Positions 3,764-18,086 of a stretch of DNA of 18,269 nt are shown here, piece by piece (the first letter of the stretch is position 1; each line of letters opens with the position of its first letter). The DNA is taken from NCBI GenBank assembly GCA_023512255.1, contig JAILZY010000068.1:1-18269 (forward strand). Reading direction: 5' to 3'. Below the pieces are notes generated by a model. It had not been told where the DNA came from. It saw only the letters and a program-made list of their open reading frames with translations, and made no database searches. Source of the stretch: a bacterium. GTDB taxonomy: Bacteria; SZUA-182; DTGQ01. The position numbers and the translations under genes were made by a program.

Positions 3764-4756
3764 ATGAACAAAAGCTACGATCCTGAATATCTGGAAAAGG
3801 AGTGGAGTCGAAGGGACCTTGATCTTTTCCCCTATATGGAGGGATTCTTCAGTCTGCTGCGGTCAAGAGAAGAAAATCTTGAGCGGACCAGGAAAAGATT
3901 GCAAGGCTCTTCTGCGGCTACGATCGTTCAATTCTTGAGTTCGGATGACAAAGATGTCTCACTTATTGCCAAGAGCCTGATCCAGGATTATCCAGACCAA
4001 GCACTGATTACTTCTACCCTGGTCTACAGTCTGAGCAAGATAACTAAAGCGGGCTATCCGGCTAGGGCTGGGGCTTGTCTGGCTGGCTGCCACAGACCTG
4101 CGGCAGGTCTTGCCTATCTTTTCTCGCTTCTTCGCCACCGTCCAGAAATCAAATCCAGGGGCTATGAATTTTTCAACCACTTCTGGCTGACAGGAACCAG
4201 CGACTCGATCACCTGCCCTGAGCATCTTCAGCACTTTTTCAGACAGATCTTTCAAGCCGTTCAGGAAGATCTTAGGGAAATTATCGCTGATCTTAGTCGA
4301 ATTAGCACCGGAGAGGAATTCCTCTTGCTGAAAGAAGATCTTCTGCCAGCAATCAGGGCCTACTACCTGATTGAAACCCGGCCTGAGGTAAGGATAATCT
4401 TTGACCAGGAGCTTGCAAGGTTTGGACAGCAGCGCATCCGAAGCCTTGGTCGGCTGATCTCCTTTGAACCCCATAAGCATGGTCATCATTACCTTGAAGA
4501 GATGCTTCCCTTGGTGGTTGCCTTTATCGGTTTGCTTCGGCTTGAGCGGGACAGCGAGCAATTGAGCCAAATTTTAATGGATATCGCTCTAGCTGAATGG
4601 AACAAACCGTTGAGAACCCGTCTTGAAATCCTTATTAAAAAGGTGCTTTCCCTGTTAGAAGACTCAACCTTGTATGTCTATGAGACTCTAGCAGCGGATC
4701 TATTTTTTAATCAAAGCGGGAGATCGGAAACTCCTCCTGAGTCAGCGGCTGCATGA
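3764..4756 (+). CDS. Hypothetical all-helical protein, possibly HEAT-like
   Basis: I do not recognise this 330-residue protein. There is no signal peptide and no convincing membrane helix, so it is probably cytoplasmic. The sequence is rich in Leu, Glu, Arg and Lys and reads as successive amphipathic helices; the stretches around 40-120, 150-215 and 230-320 have the spacing expected of an alpha-solenoid, but I cannot define exact repeats. No nucleotide-binding, metal-binding or catalytic motif is apparent; an HKHGHH cluster at about 238-243 is the only histidine-rich spot. The C-terminus is a short low-complexity tail (ETPPESAAA). The start has only a weak ribosome site and is chosen as the first ATG downstream of a TTGACA promoter candidate. 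Its coding character is supported by length, by codon use like the neighbours and by the lack of a better frame: the 203-codon antisense frame over 3959-4570 looks like a shadow. Confidence 0.7.
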   Translation: MNKSYDPEYLEKEWSRRDLDLFPYMEGFFSLLRSREENLERTRKRLQGSSAATIVQFLSSDDKDVSLIAKSLIQDYPDQALITSTLVYSLSKITKAGYPARAGACLAGCHRPAAGLAYLFSLLRHRPEIKSRGYEFFNHFWLTGTSDSITCPEHLQHFFRQIFQAVQEDLREIIADLSRISTGEEFLLLKEDLLPAIRAYYLIETRPEVRIIFDQELARFGQQRIRSLGRLISFEPHKHGHHYLEEMLPLVVAFIGLLRLERDSEQLSQILMDIALAEWNKPLRTRLEILIKKVLSLLEDSTLYVYETLAADLFFNQSGRSETPPESAAA

Positions 4757-9687: not shown

Positions 9688-9799
9688 TAAATTAAAAATG
9701 GTTTTCTCTTTTCATCCGCCTTGCCACCAGCCAGACTTTTCCCGAAGTCGTCTTCAATGCCTCCCGATAAATAAAGTGTTATCAATCTCCTACTTACTA

Positions 9800-9841: not shown

Positions 9842-9943
9842 GCAAATTGAGCATCTAAAACGAATCCAAATTTCTTTTGGGCAATTGAAACAGAGGCGGA
9901 AAAACGCGAAATACCCTGGAATAATTAAGGAGAAAGCTCTTTT

Positions 9944-11476
9944 ATGCCCCCTATCATGCCGAGCGGCCAATCCACCAAAAAGAAAAAAATCCCTTATGTA
10001 ATAGCTACTGGTTTTACTACTGCCTTTTTGGGAGATGAGCGATCTTTAAGGGAATTCATTATTGGTGATAAGATTCAGAAAGACCTTGAGCGGAAGGGCA
10101 GAAATAGCGTTCTTTATCTTATTAATGATAGTTATGACCCCCTAAATTATCGACAACTGAGAGTAGGTGTTAATAAGAATGAGAGACTTTTAAGCCGCTT
10201 TGAGCGCTACTGTGGTCGCCCTATTTCGGAAATCCCAGACCCTTTTGATTGTCATGAGAATTATTCGCAGCATTTTGCCCAAGCTCTCATCAAGCGCCTT
10301 CATTCTCTCGATATCTATCCAGTGATGATCGACTCTTATCATGCTTATCAAAAAGGATATTATGCAGATTTCATCTCCACTACCTTTGAGAACTACAACA
10401 GGATACAGGAGCTTATCTCACAGCGATTTCCAAACTTCTCTATTAAGAACCTGTTTCGCATCCAGTGTCTGGAGTGCCTCTGCATAGATGCCACCCATAT
10501 CTTTCAGGTAAGCGGCCGTGATATCCGATTCGGCTGTGAGCGCTGCAATAGGTCAAATATGCTCCATAGTATTGATGAGGTTCGCGGTAAATTGAGCTGG
10601 AAACTTGATTGCGCAGCGCGCTGGAATCTGTATGGAATCGACCTTGAGACCTTTTCCAAGGCCCATATGGCTGAGTTAGGAAGCTTTGCCATATCTCGCT
10701 TTCTATCCCAAGAGTTTTACGGAGGCAAAGTGCCAGCCATAGTCCGATATGGCGATGTGATGATAGATAAGGAGCTCTCACTCAAGCTGCTTGAAATTCT
10801 TCCCCCCCAAATTTTCAAGGCCCTCTTTGCCACCAACCGCCATCGGGACCTGAAGCTAACCAAAGCTTTTGTGGAAAATTTCTGCCAGCAATATCTGGTT
10901 AGACCCGGATTGAGCTATATTGATTATATACGCCAGGAGCTTCCCAAGCAGGCCATACATGAGAAGAATCACATCGGCTCGTATCTTGATTCACATAGCC
11001 TTAATAAGTATCCGCCTGAGGGGATGATTGACGACCAATCTCTGCTCACCTATGGAAATCGCTTCTCTCGAATTTATTATCAGCGGGAGTATAAGATTTG
11101 CTGGCCTGGAGCCGAGCTTATTAGCTCCACAGATCAGCAAACCGCTCTTCAGGCCCGGCAGGTGATCCTATATGCCCTTTTAGTCAGGGAAAATCATAAG
11201 ATAGATGACCAGAAGCAAGATAGTATTCATGAGCTGATCAGGGCTTATCTTCACTCAGAGAAACTCTCTCCTCAGCTCTTTCAATATCTAAGAAGGATAC
11301 TCGGTCAGGCTGACGGCCCAAATATCGCCACCCTGCTCGCCATTCTGCCTAGAGATTATCTGAACATAATTCAGGCTATCATTGGCTACTACTATGCCGG
11401 ACAGCCCGGTCAGGAGAAATGGGGGGAGAAGATAGATCAAAGGCTTGCCCAGTATTCAAGCCTAGTGAAAAACTAG
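9944..11476 (+). CDS. Class I lysyl-tRNA synthetase-like protein lacking HIGH and KMSKS, probable non-catalytic paralogue
   Basis: At 510 residues this matches class I LysRS in length and order. Family landmarks seen include the INDSYDPL block (60-67), IPDPFDCHENYSQHF (97-111), the YHAYQKGYY segment (132-140), two zinc pairs CLEC/CERC (Cys175, 178, 198, 201), GKLSWKLDCAARW (215-227, family GKLxWRVDWPARW), and a C-terminal helical domain ending in the GQADGPNIATLLAILPRD block (454-471). The catalytic signatures are lost. Where the family has PSGPxHIGN, the protein reads TAFLGDERS (26-34), so His and both key Gly positions are changed with no gap. The KMSSSKG loop expected after VRYGDVMID (267-275) is absent, with ELLEILPP-type sequence following at once. 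GKDH is replaced by SKAH (238-241). It should be unable to activate lysine in the normal way; it may bind tRNA, an amino acid or a nucleotide as a regulator. An AAGGAGA site 10 nt upstream supports the start; an alternative ATG lies at 9956. Confidence 0.85.
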   Translation: MPPIMPSGQSTKKKKIPYVIATGFTTAFLGDERSLREFIIGDKIQKDLERKGRNSVLYLINDSYDPLNYRQLRVGVNKNERLLSRFERYCGRPISEIPDPFDCHENYSQHFAQALIKRLHSLDIYPVMIDSYHAYQKGYYADFISTTFENYNRIQELISQRFPNFSIKNLFRIQCLECLCIDATHIFQVSGRDIRFGCERCNRSNMLHSIDEVRGKLSWKLDCAARWNLYGIDLETFSKAHMAELGSFAISRFLSQEFYGGKVPAIVRYGDVMIDKELSLKLLEILPPQIFKALFATNRHRDLKLTKAFVENFCQQYLVRPGLSYIDYIRQELPKQAIHEKNHIGSYLDSHSLNKYPPEGMIDDQSLLTYGNRFSRIYYQREYKICWPGAELISSTDQQTALQARQVILYALLVRENHKIDDQKQDSIHELIRAYLHSEKLSPQLFQYLRRILGQADGPNIATLLAILPRDYLNIIQAIIGYYYAGQPGQEKWGEKIDQRLAQYSSLVKN

Positions 11477-11538: not shown

Positions 11539-12381
11539 ATGAAGAAATTGATCCACTACTTTTGGCCGCTTTTGTTGCTTGCCCTTATCCTAAGCTGTCA
11601 GAGAGGAACCACCGAGGAGGATGTGGACCTTGGCCGACAGGGCGACGATGTTTCTCTCGAGAGGGTAAAGAAGGCTGGTGTTCTGCTTTGGGGAGCGGAT
11701 GTAATCGGCGGGGTTCCCTATGTTTACGAAGATCCCAATAAACCGGGTACATATATAGGTTTTGAGATGGACATAGCCCGCTCTATCGCCCGGCACCTTG
11801 GAGTGAAACAGAGGTTAGTCATCAAGGCCTGGGATACCTTGATTCCAGAATTGCAAAAGGGAAGCTTCGACATGGCCATGAACGGTATCGAAGATACCGA
11901 GGATCGAAGAAGGCTGGTTCTTTTTTCAGAACCATATTTTGTTTATTCCCAACAGATCACTGTTAAAAAAGAGACCGAGGGAATCAGCACCCTTGAAGAT
12001 CTTCGGGGGAAAAAGGTGGCTACCTTATCTGGGACAGCAGCTGAAGACCTCTTGCGCAAAGAGCCTACCATTGAGGTGAGCATTAACCCTGAAATCATCT
12101 ATAGTTACCGAGACCTGGAAGAAGGCATGGTGGATGCGGTTCTCCTTGATAAGCCGATTGCTGTGGCCTATGGAGCCACGAATCCGAAGTTGAAGAATGT
12201 CGGAGAGTCTTTTGGGGAGGGAACCTATGTAATTGCTGTGCGCCTGGAAGATCGAGCGCTGCTTGAGGCGATCAATGCCGCCTTAAAGAGCATGAAGGAA
12301 AGCGGCGAGCTGGCCCGGATTTTACAGCGATGGGGTATTATGGATGAACATCAGAAACGGATCGGGATTGTGATCAAATGA
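11539..12381 (+). CDS. Amino-acid-type periplasmic solute-binding lipoprotein (SBP family 3), orphan
   Basis: A 280-residue extracytoplasmic binding protein of the polar amino acid type. A short basic start, a hydrophobic helix (about 7-18) and the lipobox LILSC (Cys20) mark it as a lipoprotein. The mature part shows the family pattern: GVLLWGADVIGGVPY, YIGFEMDIARSIARHLG, WDTLIPELQKGSFDMAMNGI, the EDTEDRR segment whose Arg usually holds the ligand carboxylate, LVLFSEPY, TLSGTAAEDLL (second-lobe contact region) and AVLLDKPIA, whose Asp usually binds the ligand amino group. So an alpha-amino acid is the likely ligand, though its side chain cannot be read. No permease or ATPase gene occurs on either side; the gene is followed with a 4-nt overlap by the ALDH-like gene and then by a sensor kinase. 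That suggests a sensory rather than transport role, or a transporter encoded elsewhere. AAGGAG lies 9 nt before the ATG. Confidence 0.9.
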   Translation: MKKLIHYFWPLLLLALILSCQRGTTEEDVDLGRQGDDVSLERVKKAGVLLWGADVIGGVPYVYEDPNKPGTYIGFEMDIARSIARHLGVKQRLVIKAWDTLIPELQKGSFDMAMNGIEDTEDRRRLVLFSEPYFVYSQQITVKKETEGISTLEDLRGKKVATLSGTAAEDLLRKEPTIEVSINPEIIYSYRDLEEGMVDAVLLDKPIAVAYGATNPKLKNVGESFGEGTYVIAVRLEDRALLEAINAALKSMKESGELARILQRWGIMDEHQKRIGIVIK

Positions 12382-13820
12382 CTGCTGTTTATGGAAATTT
12401 CATCAATGATCGTATCTCCACTCAGGGGACTTATCATGAAGTAATCTCACCAGTGAGTGGTGCTTGTCTTGGCACGGTACCCTTGGCCACGAAAGAGCAG
12501 ATCGCTCAAGCTCTGGCTAAGTTTGCTGATCAGCCACCAGCGCTTTACCGCAAGGAGGTCTTTGCCTTTCTCCATCGCCTGGGGCAGCAGCTACATCTGC
12601 AGCAGGATCTTTTGGTGGAGAAAATCTGCCTTGAGACTGGCTTTGTAATTAGGGATTGCCAGGAAATTGTTTCTAGCTCAATCGAGTTTCTGCACGATTT
12701 TGAGGTTTATGTTCATGACAAGAGCTTCAGGGAGCAGGTAATCAGGCATTCCTATTCTTCAGCCTCAGGGCGGGATATTCGGCTAACCCAGCTTCCCTTC
12801 CGCTGCGTGGCAGCAGTTGTGCCGCAGAATGCATCTCTTTCGCTCAGTGTCATCATTATTGCCTCGGCTCTCTATGCCGGGACTCGACTAATTCTACGAA
12901 CCTCGCTTCAAAACGGCCTAACTTCCTCTCTTTTGGCCAAAGCAGTTGCTCGTAGCGCTCCTCCACCCTCACGGATCATAATCATCAATTGCCTGGCTAA
13001 GGATTTTATTGACGCCTGCTGCAACTCGCCATCCGTAGACCTGATCCATTATATAGGAAGCAATCAGTATGCCCTGCCAGTCTTTACCCAAGCATTTGAG
13101 GCCGGAAAGGTCTGTTTGCTCGATGGGCAGGGAAACGGGCTCCTCTATCTGGATGATACCTTCCCGCTGGAGGATGCGGTCAGGATCATCGGCCAGGGAG
13201 CGACGCGATATAATGGAGAAACCTGCACCTCAATTAATGGCGTTTTGATTAAAAACACCGTATATCAAAAGGCTAAAGAAGCCATAGTGGATTATTTTAA
13301 AGCCTTACGTCTGGGAAATCCTCTTGATCCCAAAACTCAGATTGGCCCTCTATTTAGTGAGAAGCAGGCTCTGATGCTCCATCAAGCTATTCGGAAAGCT
13401 GCGGGGGCAAGGGCCCTGTGCGGTGGTCAAATTGAGGGAGCATATTTTAGGCCGGCAGTGGTGGAGGGGGTAAGCCTTGATGATACTATAGTTCGGGAAG
13501 GAGTTTTTGGCCCGCTTATCTGGATTCAAAGTGTAGGTGAGGAGAGTGTATGGCCTTGGCTGTCCGCAAATCGATTTCCTCTAAGTGACACCATCCTGAG
13601 CATGGATGGTGATCTTATCCGCTCTTTTACTGAACACTCCAAAGCAGCCAGGATCTGCGTCAATGAGGATCCATCGGTTGAGTCCGTTTTCGAGCCCTGG
13701 GGCGGCTATCCTCCCAGCGGACTGAATCCTGTTTCAGTTTGGACGGAAAAATATCGCCGAGCTTTTCAGCTGGACGGCAGGCTAAAGGAGATCATGACCA
13801 TTTCTTTTTTAGGTGAGTAA
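12378..13820 (+). CDS. Aldehyde dehydrogenase superfamily protein with altered active site
   Basis: A 480-residue protein with the ALDH fold, which normally oxidises an aldehyde with NAD(P)+ through a Cys thiohemiacetal. The catalytic Cys283 sits in YNGETCTS (family SGQxCT) and the oxyanion Asn151 is kept in VVPQN (family TPWN). Other key positions differ: the cofactor Lys after that motif is Arg174 (LILRTS), the general-base Glu of LELGGK is Leu248 or a displaced Asp249 (CLLDGQGNG), and the second Glu of EEIFGP is Gly375 (REGVFGPL). IGSNQ (226-230) replaces the usual TGS nucleotide loop. It may have changed chemistry, such as acyl transfer or reductive use, or be a binding protein only. Its ATG overlaps the upstream TGA (ATGA), so translation is probably coupled to the binding protein; no separate strong ribosome site is visible. 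Length is normal. Fold assignment is firm, activity is not. Confidence 0.82.
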   Translation: MTAVYGNFINDRISTQGTYHEVISPVSGACLGTVPLATKEQIAQALAKFADQPPALYRKEVFAFLHRLGQQLHLQQDLLVEKICLETGFVIRDCQEIVSSSIEFLHDFEVYVHDKSFREQVIRHSYSSASGRDIRLTQLPFRCVAAVVPQNASLSLSVIIIASALYAGTRLILRTSLQNGLTSSLLAKAVARSAPPPSRIIIINCLAKDFIDACCNSPSVDLIHYIGSNQYALPVFTQAFEAGKVCLLDGQGNGLLYLDDTFPLEDAVRIIGQGATRYNGETCTSINGVLIKNTVYQKAKEAIVDYFKALRLGNPLDPKTQIGPLFSEKQALMLHQAIRKAAGARALCGGQIEGAYFRPAVVEGVSLDDTIVREGVFGPLIWIQSVGEESVWPWLSANRFPLSDTILSMDGDLIRSFTEHSKAARICVNEDPSVESVFEPWGGYPPSGLNPVSVWTEKYRRAFQLDGRLKEIMTISFLGE

Positions 13821-13821
13821 A

Positions 13822-15765
13822 GTGAAGAGTTGGCGTCGAGTGATAGAAAAAATTACCTCTTGCTCAATAAAGATTAAGATGATGGCTATGGTGTCTGTCT
13901 CCCTTTTCTTGGCAATCACCTCAGCCGCTTACCTGATGAGGAATCTGGTTTATCAGAATATTGTTGACCAGAAAATGACCACAGCCGAGATACTCACCGC
14001 CTCGCTGGTTCATGATATCAAGTATGAATATGATCTGAAGCTCGATCATCAGAATGGCTTTAAGGATATTATCAGCAAATACATGACCTATTATCGGATT
14101 ATTGAATCTATTTCTATTTATGATTATGAAGGCGTTGATATTGCGGATTCAAATCCACAAAATATCGGGACCACTACCCAAGAGAGGGAAGTGATCAGAG
14201 CCATTTCCCTGGCTAAACCAAGCCTCAGGATTATTCGCCTCGATAAGAACAAACTGTGTATCCACTCGGTATTTCCCATCCTGCGAGGCTCAAAAGTTGT
14301 GGCTGCCGTCCACATGCACATCTCCATCAAGGATATCGAGGCCATTATGTCAGCTATTGACCGGCGGATCATGACTACTTTGATCTTTACGATTACGGCA
14401 GCCTCTGTCGCTCTATTCATTATATCTCATCGGGTAATTCTCCAGCGGTTGAGTAGGTTGATGGAGGTAACTCACCAGATTGCCGCTAGCAACTACGACA
14501 TCCAGGTCAGGGATAAGTTTGGGGATGAGCTTGGACAACTGGCCCAAGCCTTTAACCATATGACCTGTGAGCTTAAAAAATCAAAGCAAGAGATTGAGGA
14601 TTACAACCAGCACCTAGAATCCAAGGTTCAGGAGGCCACTGCCCAACTCAATCAGGCCTATGAGGATCTTAAAAATGCCCAAAGCCAACTGGTCCTGAAT
14701 GAGAAGATGGCCTGCCTTGGCGTTCTCATTGCTGGAATCGCCCATGAGATCAACACCCCCGTAGGGGCTATCCACAATGTAGCCAGAAACCTTGAGCAGC
14801 GAGTTGAGGCTTTCCTCCAGGCACTTGAATCCTTCAAAAAGGACCAGGATGTCGAAGCTGATAATAATCTGGTTGAATGCTTCAGGGAGTTGATCAAGAC
14901 TTCGGCCACTGACCGGCAGGCTGCCTCCTTTCAAGAGATTAGAGCGGTTGAAAATCTCCTAAAAGAGGAAGGTATCGCTGGCTGGCGAAAAGTAGCTGCA
15001 AGCTTGGCTCAACTCAATTTTACAGATTTAGACAAAATCAGGCAGTTTAGACATCTTTTCAGAAGCTCTTCTCTCTTTCCCCTCTTAGAATCGATCGGCA
15101 GCATTGCTCAGGCCACTAAGATCGTCCAGACAAGCTCCAAGAAGATTGAGGAGATTGTCCGAGCACTTAAATACTATGCCTACACTGATAAGGACAGAGT
15201 CGAAAAGACCCAGTTGAATGAATCAATCAATACTGCCCTAATCCTGTTGCGCAACAGGCTAAAGCACACAGTTAAGATAGTGGCCGAGTTTGACCCTGAT
15301 CTGCCAGAGATTCCCTGCACCAGCGAGGTTCACCAGATATGGACCAATCTTCTGAACAATGCCTGTGATGCCGTAGAGGCTATGGGCGAGGAGTGGTCGG
15401 GAGAGATTGTCATCCGAACTCAAAGGGTTGCAGATCGCATCGTAGTTACCATAACTGACAACGGTATTGGTATTCCAGAGGACAAGATAGGGAGGATCTT
15501 CGATCCCTTTTTTACCACCAAGGATATCGGCAAAGGGACCGGCCTTGGGTTGTCGATCGTCTCTGGGATCATCAAAAAGCACAAAGGAGAAATTCGGGTG
15601 GTTGAAAGCAGACGGGGCCATACGGTTTTTGAGGTCAGTTTCCCGATCGAGGCGAAATTATTGCCGGAGTCTGAGCAGGTGTTAACAGCAGAGCTTGACC
15701 AGCCAACAGAGAAACGAGAAAAAACGCTTAACAAGAGGAGGTTGTGTGAGCCATGTCTTCTGTAG
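13822..15765 (+). CDS. Membrane sensor histidine kinase, Cache-HAMP-HisKA-HATPase
   Basis: Residues here are counted from a GTG three codons upstream (13813). Order: TM1 about 22-42, a periplasmic single-Cache-like domain about 43-185, TM2 about 187-206, HAMP about 207-258, coiled coil about 252-298, the H-box LIAGIAHEINTP with phospho-acceptor His311, then the ATPase domain with N-box TNLLNNACDAV (511-521), DNGIG (549-553), FDPFFTTK (563-570) and GTGLGL (575-580). The kinase should be active. About 110 residues (325-435) separate the two helices of the dimerisation domain, far longer than usual, as in other kinases with HEINTP boxes that I recall. The start GTG at 13822 has AGGTGAG 4 nt upstream; the alternative GTG at 13813 has no such site. 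It begins one base after the ALDH-like stop and overlaps the response regulator by 13 nt, so both are co-translated partners. The ligand may be sensed directly or through the binding protein. Confidence 0.93.
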   Translation: MKSWRRVIEKITSCSIKIKMMAMVSVSLFLAITSAAYLMRNLVYQNIVDQKMTTAEILTASLVHDIKYEYDLKLDHQNGFKDIISKYMTYYRIIESISIYDYEGVDIADSNPQNIGTTTQEREVIRAISLAKPSLRIIRLDKNKLCIHSVFPILRGSKVVAAVHMHISIKDIEAIMSAIDRRIMTTLIFTITAASVALFIISHRVILQRLSRLMEVTHQIAASNYDIQVRDKFGDELGQLAQAFNHMTCELKKSKQEIEDYNQHLESKVQEATAQLNQAYEDLKNAQSQLVLNEKMACLGVLIAGIAHEINTPVGAIHNVARNLEQRVEAFLQALESFKKDQDVEADNNLVECFRELIKTSATDRQAASFQEIRAVENLLKEEGIAGWRKVAASLAQLNFTDLDKIRQFRHLFRSSSLFPLLESIGSIAQATKIVQTSSKKIEEIVRALKYYAYTDKDRVEKTQLNESINTALILLRNRLKHTVKIVAEFDPDLPEIPCTSEVHQIWTNLLNNACDAVEAMGEEWSGEIVIRTQRVADRIVVTITDNGIGIPEDKIGRIFDPFFTTKDIGKGTGLGLSIVSGIIKKHKGEIRVVESRRGHTVFEVSFPIEAKLLPESEQVLTAELDQPTEKREKTLNKRRLCEPCLL

Positions 15766-18086
15766 AGGAGTTGGAAGACGATACCCTACAGATGGATCCT
15801 GCGGAGCATTTGATCATCTGCGTAGATGATGACCAAAATTTCCTAAAGTCGCTGGAGTTTTTTCTCCCTGAGAAAATCAATCAGGAGACAGATGGACAGA
15901 CATGGTACCGGTTCCTTTTCTTTGATAATCCTCACCTCGCTCTCGATACTCTCAAAGAACTAATAGCCAGCCAGGAAACAGTGGCTATGGTTATTAGTGA
16001 TCAGAAAATGCCCAGTATGAAGGGGACGGAATTTTTGGCTGAGGTCAAAAAAATTTCCCAGCACAGCATCCGGGTCCTTCTGACCGGCTATGCCGGTGTA
16101 GAATCAGCCGTAGTGGCCATCAATGAGAATTTGCTGGATAAATATTTGACTAAGCCGATAGAGGATGAGCACGATTTCATTATCAGTATTAAGCATCTGC
16201 TCCAAAAGTTTCGGATGCAAGGCACGATTGCTCATCAGGCCAAGATTATCCATGAGCTCTATCAATTTTCGAATATTTTGAACGGGATAGAGGATTTCCA
16301 AAAGATGCTGGACTACATTGTCAGCTTCACTGGCCGAATGCTGAAATGCCAGCGTATCTCCCTCATGCTCGATGACGGCGGTCTGCTTCGGATCAAAGCC
16401 TCAATGGGAGTTCCCGCTGGAGTGGTCAATGCGACCAGCATACCAATCGGTGAGCGAATCTCAGGCACGGTTTTCCGATCCAAAAAGGCTATCTTAGCTA
16501 AAAGTCTCGATCAGGTTCCTTACCTTGACGGAAGGGTTGAAGTCAATGCCCAATCCTTCATCAGCATACCCATTCTCCTAGCCAGCTTGACCTCAGGAGA
16601 TCAACCCCTTGGGGTGATCAACATTACCCAGAAGGAGGACAATCTGCCCTTTACCGAAGATGACCTGGACATCCTGACCTATATCGCCAACACCGCCTCT
16701 ATTGCCATCCATAATCAGATCAATCGCCTGAAGCTTCAGCAAGCTTATGTTGAAACCAAGACCCAGGCCGCGGCCCTTGAATACCAGGCCAGGCATGATG
16801 CCCTGACCGGCTTGCCGAACCGGAACATGCTCAAAGAATGCCTCAGGGAGGCTATCTTGGCCGGGGAGAGCGAAAAGAAGCCATTTGGCCTGCTGATCAT
16901 GGATTTAAACCGATTCAAGGAAGTCAATGATACCCTTGGCCACAACAGTGGTGATGTCCTTCTCCAGCAGATTGGGCAAAGATTGCGCCAAGCGCTGCCA
17001 GAGGAAGATGTGCTGGCTCGACTCGGAGGTGATGAATTCGCCGTATTTTTGCCAGGCGCTGATATAGAGGCTGCCATAGGGGTTGCCCGCCTAATCATTC
17101 AGACTCTAAGAGAGCCGTTTACCCTTGAGGGATTGACGCTTGATATCAGCACAAGCCTTGGCCTAAGCCTTTATCCCGATCATGGGCAGGAGGTCAATCT
17201 ACTCATTCAGCGGGCTGACGTAGCCATGTATCAAGCCAAAAACAGCGGATCAGGCTACAGTGTCTATGATCCCGCATACGATCAGTACAATCACCGCCGT
17301 CTAGCTATGATCGGCGGACTGCGCCGGGCTATCGAAGACAACCAGCTGGTTCTATACTATCAACCAAAGATAGACCTCAAGACCGGCTGCATCTGCGGCC
17401 TTGAGGCCCTGGTACGTTGGCAACACCCTGAATACGGTTTTATGCCTCCTGACCAATTTATACAACTGGCTGAGCAGACCGATCTGATCAGACCGCTCAC
17501 CCTGTGGGTGCTGAATGAAGCCCTAAAGCAGAGTAGTCAATTGCTGAGCCAGGGGATCGAAATCTCTATGGCTGTTAATTTGTCGATCCGAAATCTTCAA
17601 GATGAGAATTTTCCCGACCAGGTGAGAGAGCTCCTCGAGAAGTGGGGTATAAGTCCAAATCTTCTGGAACTTGAAATCACTGAAACCAACATCATGGCCA
17701 ATCCTGAGCTAGCGATGTGCGTTCTCAAGCGCTTAAGTAATATGGGTATCCATCTGGCCATTGATGATTTCGGCACCGGGCAGTCCTCTCTGGCTTATGT
17801 CAAGAGATTACCCGTCCATGAGATTAAAATTGACAAATCATTTGTCATGAGCATGGAAGCAAACAATAGTGATGTCATGATCGTCAATACAGCCGTAGAC
17901 CTTGGCCACAACCTTGGGCTTTCCGTTGTGGCCGAAGGAGTCGAAAACAAAGAAACATACGACCGGCTAGCCATTCTTGGCTGCAATGTGGCTCAAGGAT
18001 ATTTCATCAGCCGTCCCCTACCTGCAACCCAGCTAGTGAGTTGGATTCATGAATCTAGATGGGGATTAAAGAATAGGACGGAGTAG
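15753..18086 (+). CDS. Response regulator REC-GAF-GGDEF-EAL, cyclic-di-GMP turnover
   Basis: A 777-residue cytoplasmic protein with four domains. REC (about 20-150) has the acidic cluster Asp25-27, phospho-acceptor Asp83 in VISDQKMP, Thr111 and Lys134. GAF spans about 165-325. GGDEF (about 345-505) has an intact GGDEF (425-429) plus DLNRFKEVND and LGHNSGD, so diguanylate cyclase activity is expected; the product-inhibition site RxxD is PEED (416-419), so feedback by c-di-GMP should be weak or absent. EAL (about 520-770) keeps GLEALVRW (Glu551), Asn609, ELEITET (Glu641), DDFGTG (671-676), Lys695 and Glu728, so phosphodiesterase activity is also expected. Phosphorylation by the kinase encoded just upstream (13-nt overlap) probably shifts the balance between synthesis and breakdown; GAF may add a second signal. 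The start has AAGAGGAGG 11 nt upstream. Confidence 0.95.
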   Translation: MSSVEELEDDTLQMDPAEHLIICVDDDQNFLKSLEFFLPEKINQETDGQTWYRFLFFDNPHLALDTLKELIASQETVAMVISDQKMPSMKGTEFLAEVKKISQHSIRVLLTGYAGVESAVVAINENLLDKYLTKPIEDEHDFIISIKHLLQKFRMQGTIAHQAKIIHELYQFSNILNGIEDFQKMLDYIVSFTGRMLKCQRISLMLDDGGLLRIKASMGVPAGVVNATSIPIGERISGTVFRSKKAILAKSLDQVPYLDGRVEVNAQSFISIPILLASLTSGDQPLGVINITQKEDNLPFTEDDLDILTYIANTASIAIHNQINRLKLQQAYVETKTQAAALEYQARHDALTGLPNRNMLKECLREAILAGESEKKPFGLLIMDLNRFKEVNDTLGHNSGDVLLQQIGQRLRQALPEEDVLARLGGDEFAVFLPGADIEAAIGVARLIIQTLREPFTLEGLTLDISTSLGLSLYPDHGQEVNLLIQRADVAMYQAKNSGSGYSVYDPAYDQYNHRRLAMIGGLRRAIEDNQLVLYYQPKIDLKTGCICGLEALVRWQHPEYGFMPPDQFIQLAEQTDLIRPLTLWVLNEALKQSSQLLSQGIEISMAVNLSIRNLQDENFPDQVRELLEKWGISPNLLELEITETNIMANPELAMCVLKRLSNMGIHLAIDDFGTGQSSLAYVKRLPVHEIKIDKSFVMSMEANNSDVMIVNTAVDLGHNLGLSVVAEGVENKETYDRLAILGCNVAQGYFISRPLPATQLVSWIHESRWGLKNRTE

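Follow-up and report, generated by a model that had tools for sequence, protein, structure and literature searches.

A class I lysyl-tRNA synthetase homologue without catalytic signatures heads a conserved c-di-GMP signalling operon

The first gene of a signalling operon in the 18,269-nucleotide stretch of bacterial DNA analysed here (the window) encodes a homologue of class I lysyl-tRNA synthetase (LysRS-I) that has lost the catalytic signatures of the family. The genome carries a separate housekeeping LysRS, the gene evolves under purifying selection, and the operon is conserved in a sister species of the same genus (G001). We refer to the protein as pseudo-LysRS; it probably serves as a sensor of amino acids or as a regulatory subunit and not as a synthetase. 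The features on which this analysis draws are collected in Table 1.

Table 1. Features of the pseudo-LysRS gene and its operon (positions in the window; G001, sister species; G002, another genus of the same family)
Feature	Position	Strand	Evidence and remarks
Pseudo-LysRS-I, 510 aa	9944..11476	+	PF01921; 1irx match; sister-species orthologue 77% identical
Former HIGH region, residues 23-37, GFTTAFLGDERSLRE	10010..10054	+	HIGN -> DERS, PSG -> TAF; 15/15 residues same in orthologue
Zinc-binding cysteine pairs C175/C178, C198/C201	10466..10546	+	near-invariant in 26 canonical LysRS-I; kept here and in orthologue
Residues 219-247, WKLDCAARW and SKAH (former GKDH)	10598..10684	+	W219, H241 kept; G->S238, D->A240; 1/29 differs in orthologue
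Site of deleted KMSKS/MSSSK loop, residues 269-279 (YGDVMIDKELS)	10748..10780	+	alignment gap against canonical LysRS-I
Conserved C-terminal motif, residues 447-473	11282..11362	+	25/26 compared residues same across species; dN/dS 0.018
Orphan amino-acid-binding lipoprotein, SBP_bac_3	11539..12381	+	PF00497, 115.6 bits; lipobox LSC
Divergent ALDH-like protein	12378..13820	+	PF00171, 205.7 bits; alignment
Membrane histidine kinase, HAMP, HisKA, HATPase	13813..15765	+	Pfam; orthologues G001 75%, G002 61%
Response regulator REC-GAF-GGDEF-EAL, intact GGDEF and EAL motifs	15753..18086	+	Pfam; motifs read from sequence
Short conserved element, possible control site	9738..9784	.	47 bp, 79% identical to G001; ~160-205 bp upstream of pseudo-LysRS start

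The frame of 510 codons is open, and the protein that had been read from it is confirmed. The Pfam profile tRNA-synt_1f (PF01921) matches residues 13–277 with 146.9 bits against a cut-off of 27, the sole solved relative found by sequence is the class I LysRS 1irx (E 6e-20), and profile-profile alignment with 26 canonical LysRS-I proteins carries the homology over residues 17–473, so that the full-length relationship proposed in an earlier, sequence-only reading of this DNA holds. Identity to the canonical LysRS-I proteins of its own family is 25–29%, and the score against TIGR00467, the NCBIfam equivalog for lysine-tRNA ligase, is 138.9 bits, below the cut-off of 147.55. An AF2 model of residues 14–300, of only moderate quality (mean pLDDT 61.7, pTM 0.68), matched 1irx with a Z score of 17.5 and an rmsd of 3.8 over 226 residues, GluRS and further class I synthetases following at Z ≤13; a full-length model, of poor quality with a pLDDT of 48, was left unused. 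Pseudo-LysRS shares with class I LysRS (LysRS1, lysK) the fold, the four zinc cysteines, the KLxW and ARW blocks, Y269 and a C-terminal ILGQxxGP motif; unlike these enzymes, it has no HIGH, KMSKS or GKDH, and its C-terminal half is shorter and divergent. By homology and fold it is therefore a class I LysRS, whereas none of the three marks of an aminoacylating LysRS, namely HIGH, the KMSKS/MSSSK loop and a sufficient TIGR00467 score, is found in it.

The alignment with the 26 canonical proteins locates these losses. Among the near-invariant positions of the family, 29 of 43 are retained, including C175, C178, C198, C201, D62, D65, Y107, K216 and W219, together with R226, W227, E235, S247 and Y269; L217, G23, T25, E37 and H241, the histidine of the former GKDH, are kept as well. 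The remaining 14 positions (14/43), mainly those of PSG, H.G of HIGH, GKD of GKDH and KMSKS, are lost. The family sequence GITPSGxxHIGNLRE is replaced by GFTTAFLGDERSLRE with no gap, and the H.G present in every canonical LysRS-I that spans the site has given way to DERS in the pseudo-LysRS of both species. In the same way, GKDHxxxGGSYDTG is replaced by SKAHMAELGSFAIS, and the MSSSKGN (MSSSK/KMSKS) loop is deleted between VMID and ELSLKLLEILPP, again in both species. The sequence-only reading had called the ungapped change of HIGN to DERS, the missing KMSKS loop, the change of GKDH to SKAH and the retention of the zinc cysteine pairs and of the WKLDCAARW block, and the alignment bears it out on each of these points. 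Chance or sequencing error does not account for the changes, because the sister species has the same residues at all of these places; an artefact or frameshift masking HIGH and KMSKS is likewise ruled out by their identity in an independent species. That pseudo-LysRS does not aminoacylate is a well-supported prediction.

The genome (3.83 Mb, 96.6% complete) does encode the second, canonical LysRS gene for which a search had been suggested. This LysRS-I, on contig 15 (L001), has intact HIGN and MSSSK and scores 493.8 bits against TIGR00467. The three class II matches to PF00152 in the genome include no class II LysRS; judged by sequence and length, they resemble AspRS, AsnRS and an EpmA-like protein. 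Because the canonical LysRS-I is present and a class II LysRS is absent, pseudo-LysRS can be ruled out as the housekeeping enzyme.

The sister-species orthologue carries the same altered signature residues, and comparison of the two copies yields a dN/dS of 0.088 overall, with values of 0.079–0.118 for the operon neighbours. In the Rossmann domain (residues 15–270) the ratio is 0.038; the equivalent domain of the housekeeping LysRS gives 0.044 between these two species. The former active-site windows, which were picked post hoc, differ at 3 of 60 residues, as against 32 of 206 in the remainder of the domain (Fisher p 0.03). The earlier claim that the gene is under selection is thus correct, although the open frame from which it was drawn is no proof in itself. 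These values also bear on the view that pseudo-LysRS is a decaying LysRS duplicate. The observation that could be read as decay is an in-frame TAA in the sister copy (L006 2824–2826), at the codon that matches CAA 447. However, the sequence beyond this stop is strongly conserved, with a dN/dS just past it as low as that of the motif in Table 1; the frame is intact in the genome studied here, the operon is conserved, and the purifying selection on the main domain argues against decay. We therefore reject decay on dN/dS and consider it highly improbable. Given the conservation beyond it, the TAA is either of very recent origin, an error of sequencing or assembly, or a tolerated truncation. Recoding of TAA in this lineage is ruled out, since TAA serves as the stop codon of the ALDH, MFS and M16 genes in this genome. 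One in-frame TAA likewise occurs in an ALDH gene from another member of the class (L073 in G007).

Selection is unevenly spread along the protein, and this bears on the nature of the ligand. The C-terminal half of LysRS-I is the site of the anticodon-binding domain. In pseudo-LysRS, residues 271–445 evolve with a dN/dS of 0.183, compared with 0.058 in the canonical C-terminal half, and the tail (residues 474–510) reaches 0.449. The sequence-only reading held that the C-terminal helical domain is retained, which is correct in part: this region is shortened, weakly similar when taken alone, and conserved mainly at residues 447–473. One alternative is that pseudo-LysRS is a tRNA sensor that binds tRNA-Lys without charging it and reports the charging state to the kinase, in the manner of the HisRS-like domain of Gcn2. 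Homology to LysRS-I over the full length, including the highly constrained C-terminal motif, is consistent with such a sensor. Against it, the C-terminal half is shortened and mostly relaxed, significant profile matches are missing over most of it, and the sister-species copy stops short of its final part, which makes a tRNA sensor improbable. An amino acid is a better candidate than tRNA for the putative ligand, given the constraint on the Rossmann domain, which would hold the amino acid, and the relaxation of most of the anticodon-side half.

Downstream of pseudo-LysRS, on the same strand, lie the genes for a lipoprotein, an ALDH-like protein, a histidine kinase and a REC-GAF-GGDEF-EAL regulator; a gap of 62 bp separates pseudo-LysRS from the lipoprotein gene, and the last four genes overlap end to start. 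DNA similarity to the sister species begins at 9932, just 5' of the pseudo-LysRS start, and extends to the end of the window; in the sister species the sequence continues into a protein that reads as HDOD-GGDEF. The association with a signalling operon that the sequence-only reading proposed has accordingly proved sound, pseudo-LysRS being the first gene of an operon conserved between the two species. The 47-bp element is the only stretch upstream of the operon that is shared with the sister species; the DNA that flanks it is unrelated, and the upstream genes differ. The search for an RNA element upstream of pseudo-LysRS gave sub-threshold Rfam matches only, the window contains no tRNA genes, and the search for anti-phage families returned no match. 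Farther upstream, the gene for a 330-aa protein with no Pfam match (3764–4756) is flanked by genes for an MFS transporter and a putative M16-type peptidase.

In another genus of the same family (G002), the kinase–regulator pair is present, with a kinase 61% identical, and the genes for pseudo-LysRS, the lipoprotein and the ALDH-like protein are absent. The first three genes look like a module that was added to the signalling pair in this genus or was lost elsewhere; the former is suggested because the other genus has the pair without them. Downstream of the pair in that genome (L088 6113–12032) lies another copy of the regulator, which appears to be joined to the beginning of an HDOD protein.

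The two proteins encoded between pseudo-LysRS and the signalling pair add to this picture. In the lipoprotein, an Arg and an Asp align with the positions by which the SBP_bac_3 fold holds the alpha-amino acid. The ALDH-like protein, which has no close relative beyond the genus among 30 genomes, keeps the nucleophile Cys283 and the oxyanion Asn151; the general base Glu is replaced by Asp249, the cofactor-binding Lys by Arg174 and Glu by Gly375, in both species alike, so that it departs from the set of Cys, Glu base and cofactor Lys and Glu that marks an active NAD(P)-dependent ALDH. The strongest rival to a regulatory role is a new catalytic activity, in which pseudo-LysRS and the altered ALDH would perform a two-enzyme step on a substrate derived from an amino acid, such as a semialdehyde or an aminoacyl intermediate, a compound that the operon would sense or degrade. 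The two genes are adjacent, were found together only in this genus across the genomes covered, and show the same divergence (77% identity between the species); the retained Cys283 and Asn151, and the invariant new residues of DERS and SKAH, which could be catalytic, are also compatible with joint chemistry. However, pseudo-LysRS lacks the ATP-binding elements and the ALDH-like protein has substitutions at the general base and at two positions that bind the cofactor, such that the classic chemistry appears lost in both. We consider joint chemistry unlikely.

Pseudo-LysRS was found in two species of one genus. A profile search of 386 genomes across the domain, a scan of 84,980 genomes confined to two peptide patterns, and scans of viral contigs and plasmids, none of them exhaustive, recovered no orthologue, yielding canonical LysRS-I or nothing. 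In the tree, the branch leading to the pseudo-LysRS pair is 3.1 changes per site long. Grouping of the pair with the family's own LysRS, as expected for an origin by duplication, lacks support but is not rejected either (AU p 0.061).

Our preferred reading, which we hold tentatively, is that pseudo-LysRS, a paralogue of class I LysRS, no longer uses ATP or aminoacylates and instead acts as a regulatory amino-acid-binding protein in a c-di-GMP operon. We infer its ligand, its partner and the direction of regulation. Under this model, lysine or an amino acid resembling it would be the ligand of the Rossmann domain, and the remodelled surface at the former HIGH and KMSKS sites would act on a partner encoded in the same operon, either the ALDH-like protein or the kinase–regulator pair. 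The operon would merge two amino-acid inputs, an outer one through the lipoprotein and an inner one through the pseudo-synthetase, and the c-di-GMP output would come from the REC-GAF-GGDEF-EAL protein. Mutagenesis of Borrelia LysRS1 has reportedly identified G, T, W, H and Y as residues of the lysine pocket, and we take G23, T25, W219, H241 and Y269 of pseudo-LysRS to be the corresponding places. This assignment rests on the reported mutagenesis and on conservation, because the 1irx structure contains no ligand (PMC7387524). The changes of PSG to TAF and of GGSYDTG to ELGSFAI alter the surroundings of the pocket, and the ligand may therefore be something other than lysine. Many pseudo-enzymes work as protein partners, and pseudo-LysRS could be a structural or regulatory subunit that binds a protein partner only and no small ligand. 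An interaction surface of this kind would agree with the strong conservation of a domain that has no catalytic signatures, but the retention of T25, E37, W219, H241 and Y269 as opposed to the lost ATP side would then be left unexplained, and we regard such a subunit as decidedly unlikely.

The combination seen in pseudo-LysRS, that is, homology to an aminoacyl-tRNA synthetase with loss of the adenylation signature, a separate housekeeping synthetase, and purifying selection with an orthologue in a second species, is that of a non-catalytic regulator of the HisZ kind, and by analogy we suggest that pseudo-LysRS stands with such synthetase-derived regulators. HisZ is a HisRS paralogue that regulates HisG, has no adenylation activity and has been proposed to be an amino-acid-responsive regulator (PMC9437257). 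Pseudo-LysRS, by its sequence, resembles HisZ as a synthetase paralogue without the adenylation signature; the two differ in that HisZ stems from HisRS, a class II enzyme, and has its role in histidine synthesis, whereas pseudo-LysRS is a class I LysRS in a signalling operon. The insect SerRS-like protein SLIMP and the HisRS-like domain of Gcn2 are likewise non-charging, synthetase-like regulators, but they are eukaryotic, belong to class II and keep tRNA binding, whereas the tRNA-side half of pseudo-LysRS is mostly relaxed. PoxA/EpmA and LysX derive from class II LysRS. They too are LysRS paralogues, but catalytically active (PMC9437257), so that PoxA/EpmA, which the sequence-only reading had offered as a precedent for a dead synthetase, is not an apt one. 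In Bacillus cereus, the LysRS1 (lysK) is active and, together with LysRS2, aminoacylates tRNA-Other (PMC2916919); this enzyme and pseudo-LysRS are each a second LysRS of the LysRS1 fold in their genome, but that of B. cereus is catalytically competent. A 2022 review of duplicated synthetases lists LysU, PoxA and LysX as the only LysRS paralogues, all active, and no non-catalytic class I LysRS (PMC9437257). Our search of the open literature found no described regulator made from a class I LysRS.

A broader possibility, which we consider doubtful, is that pseudo-LysRS, the orphan lipoprotein and the pseudo-ALDH would form a genus-specific, three-gene sensing module joined to an existing kinase–regulator pair, with the two retired enzymes as intracellular ligand sensors that set c-di-GMP. 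If true, the module would include what is to our knowledge the first regulator derived from a class I LysRS and would represent a new type of input for two-component signalling. The operon is a small, testable system, in which a LysRS that has kept the amino-acid side and lost the ATP side, if it indeed acts at the head of a c-di-GMP operon, would couple the amino-acid state of the cell directly to second-messenger signalling.
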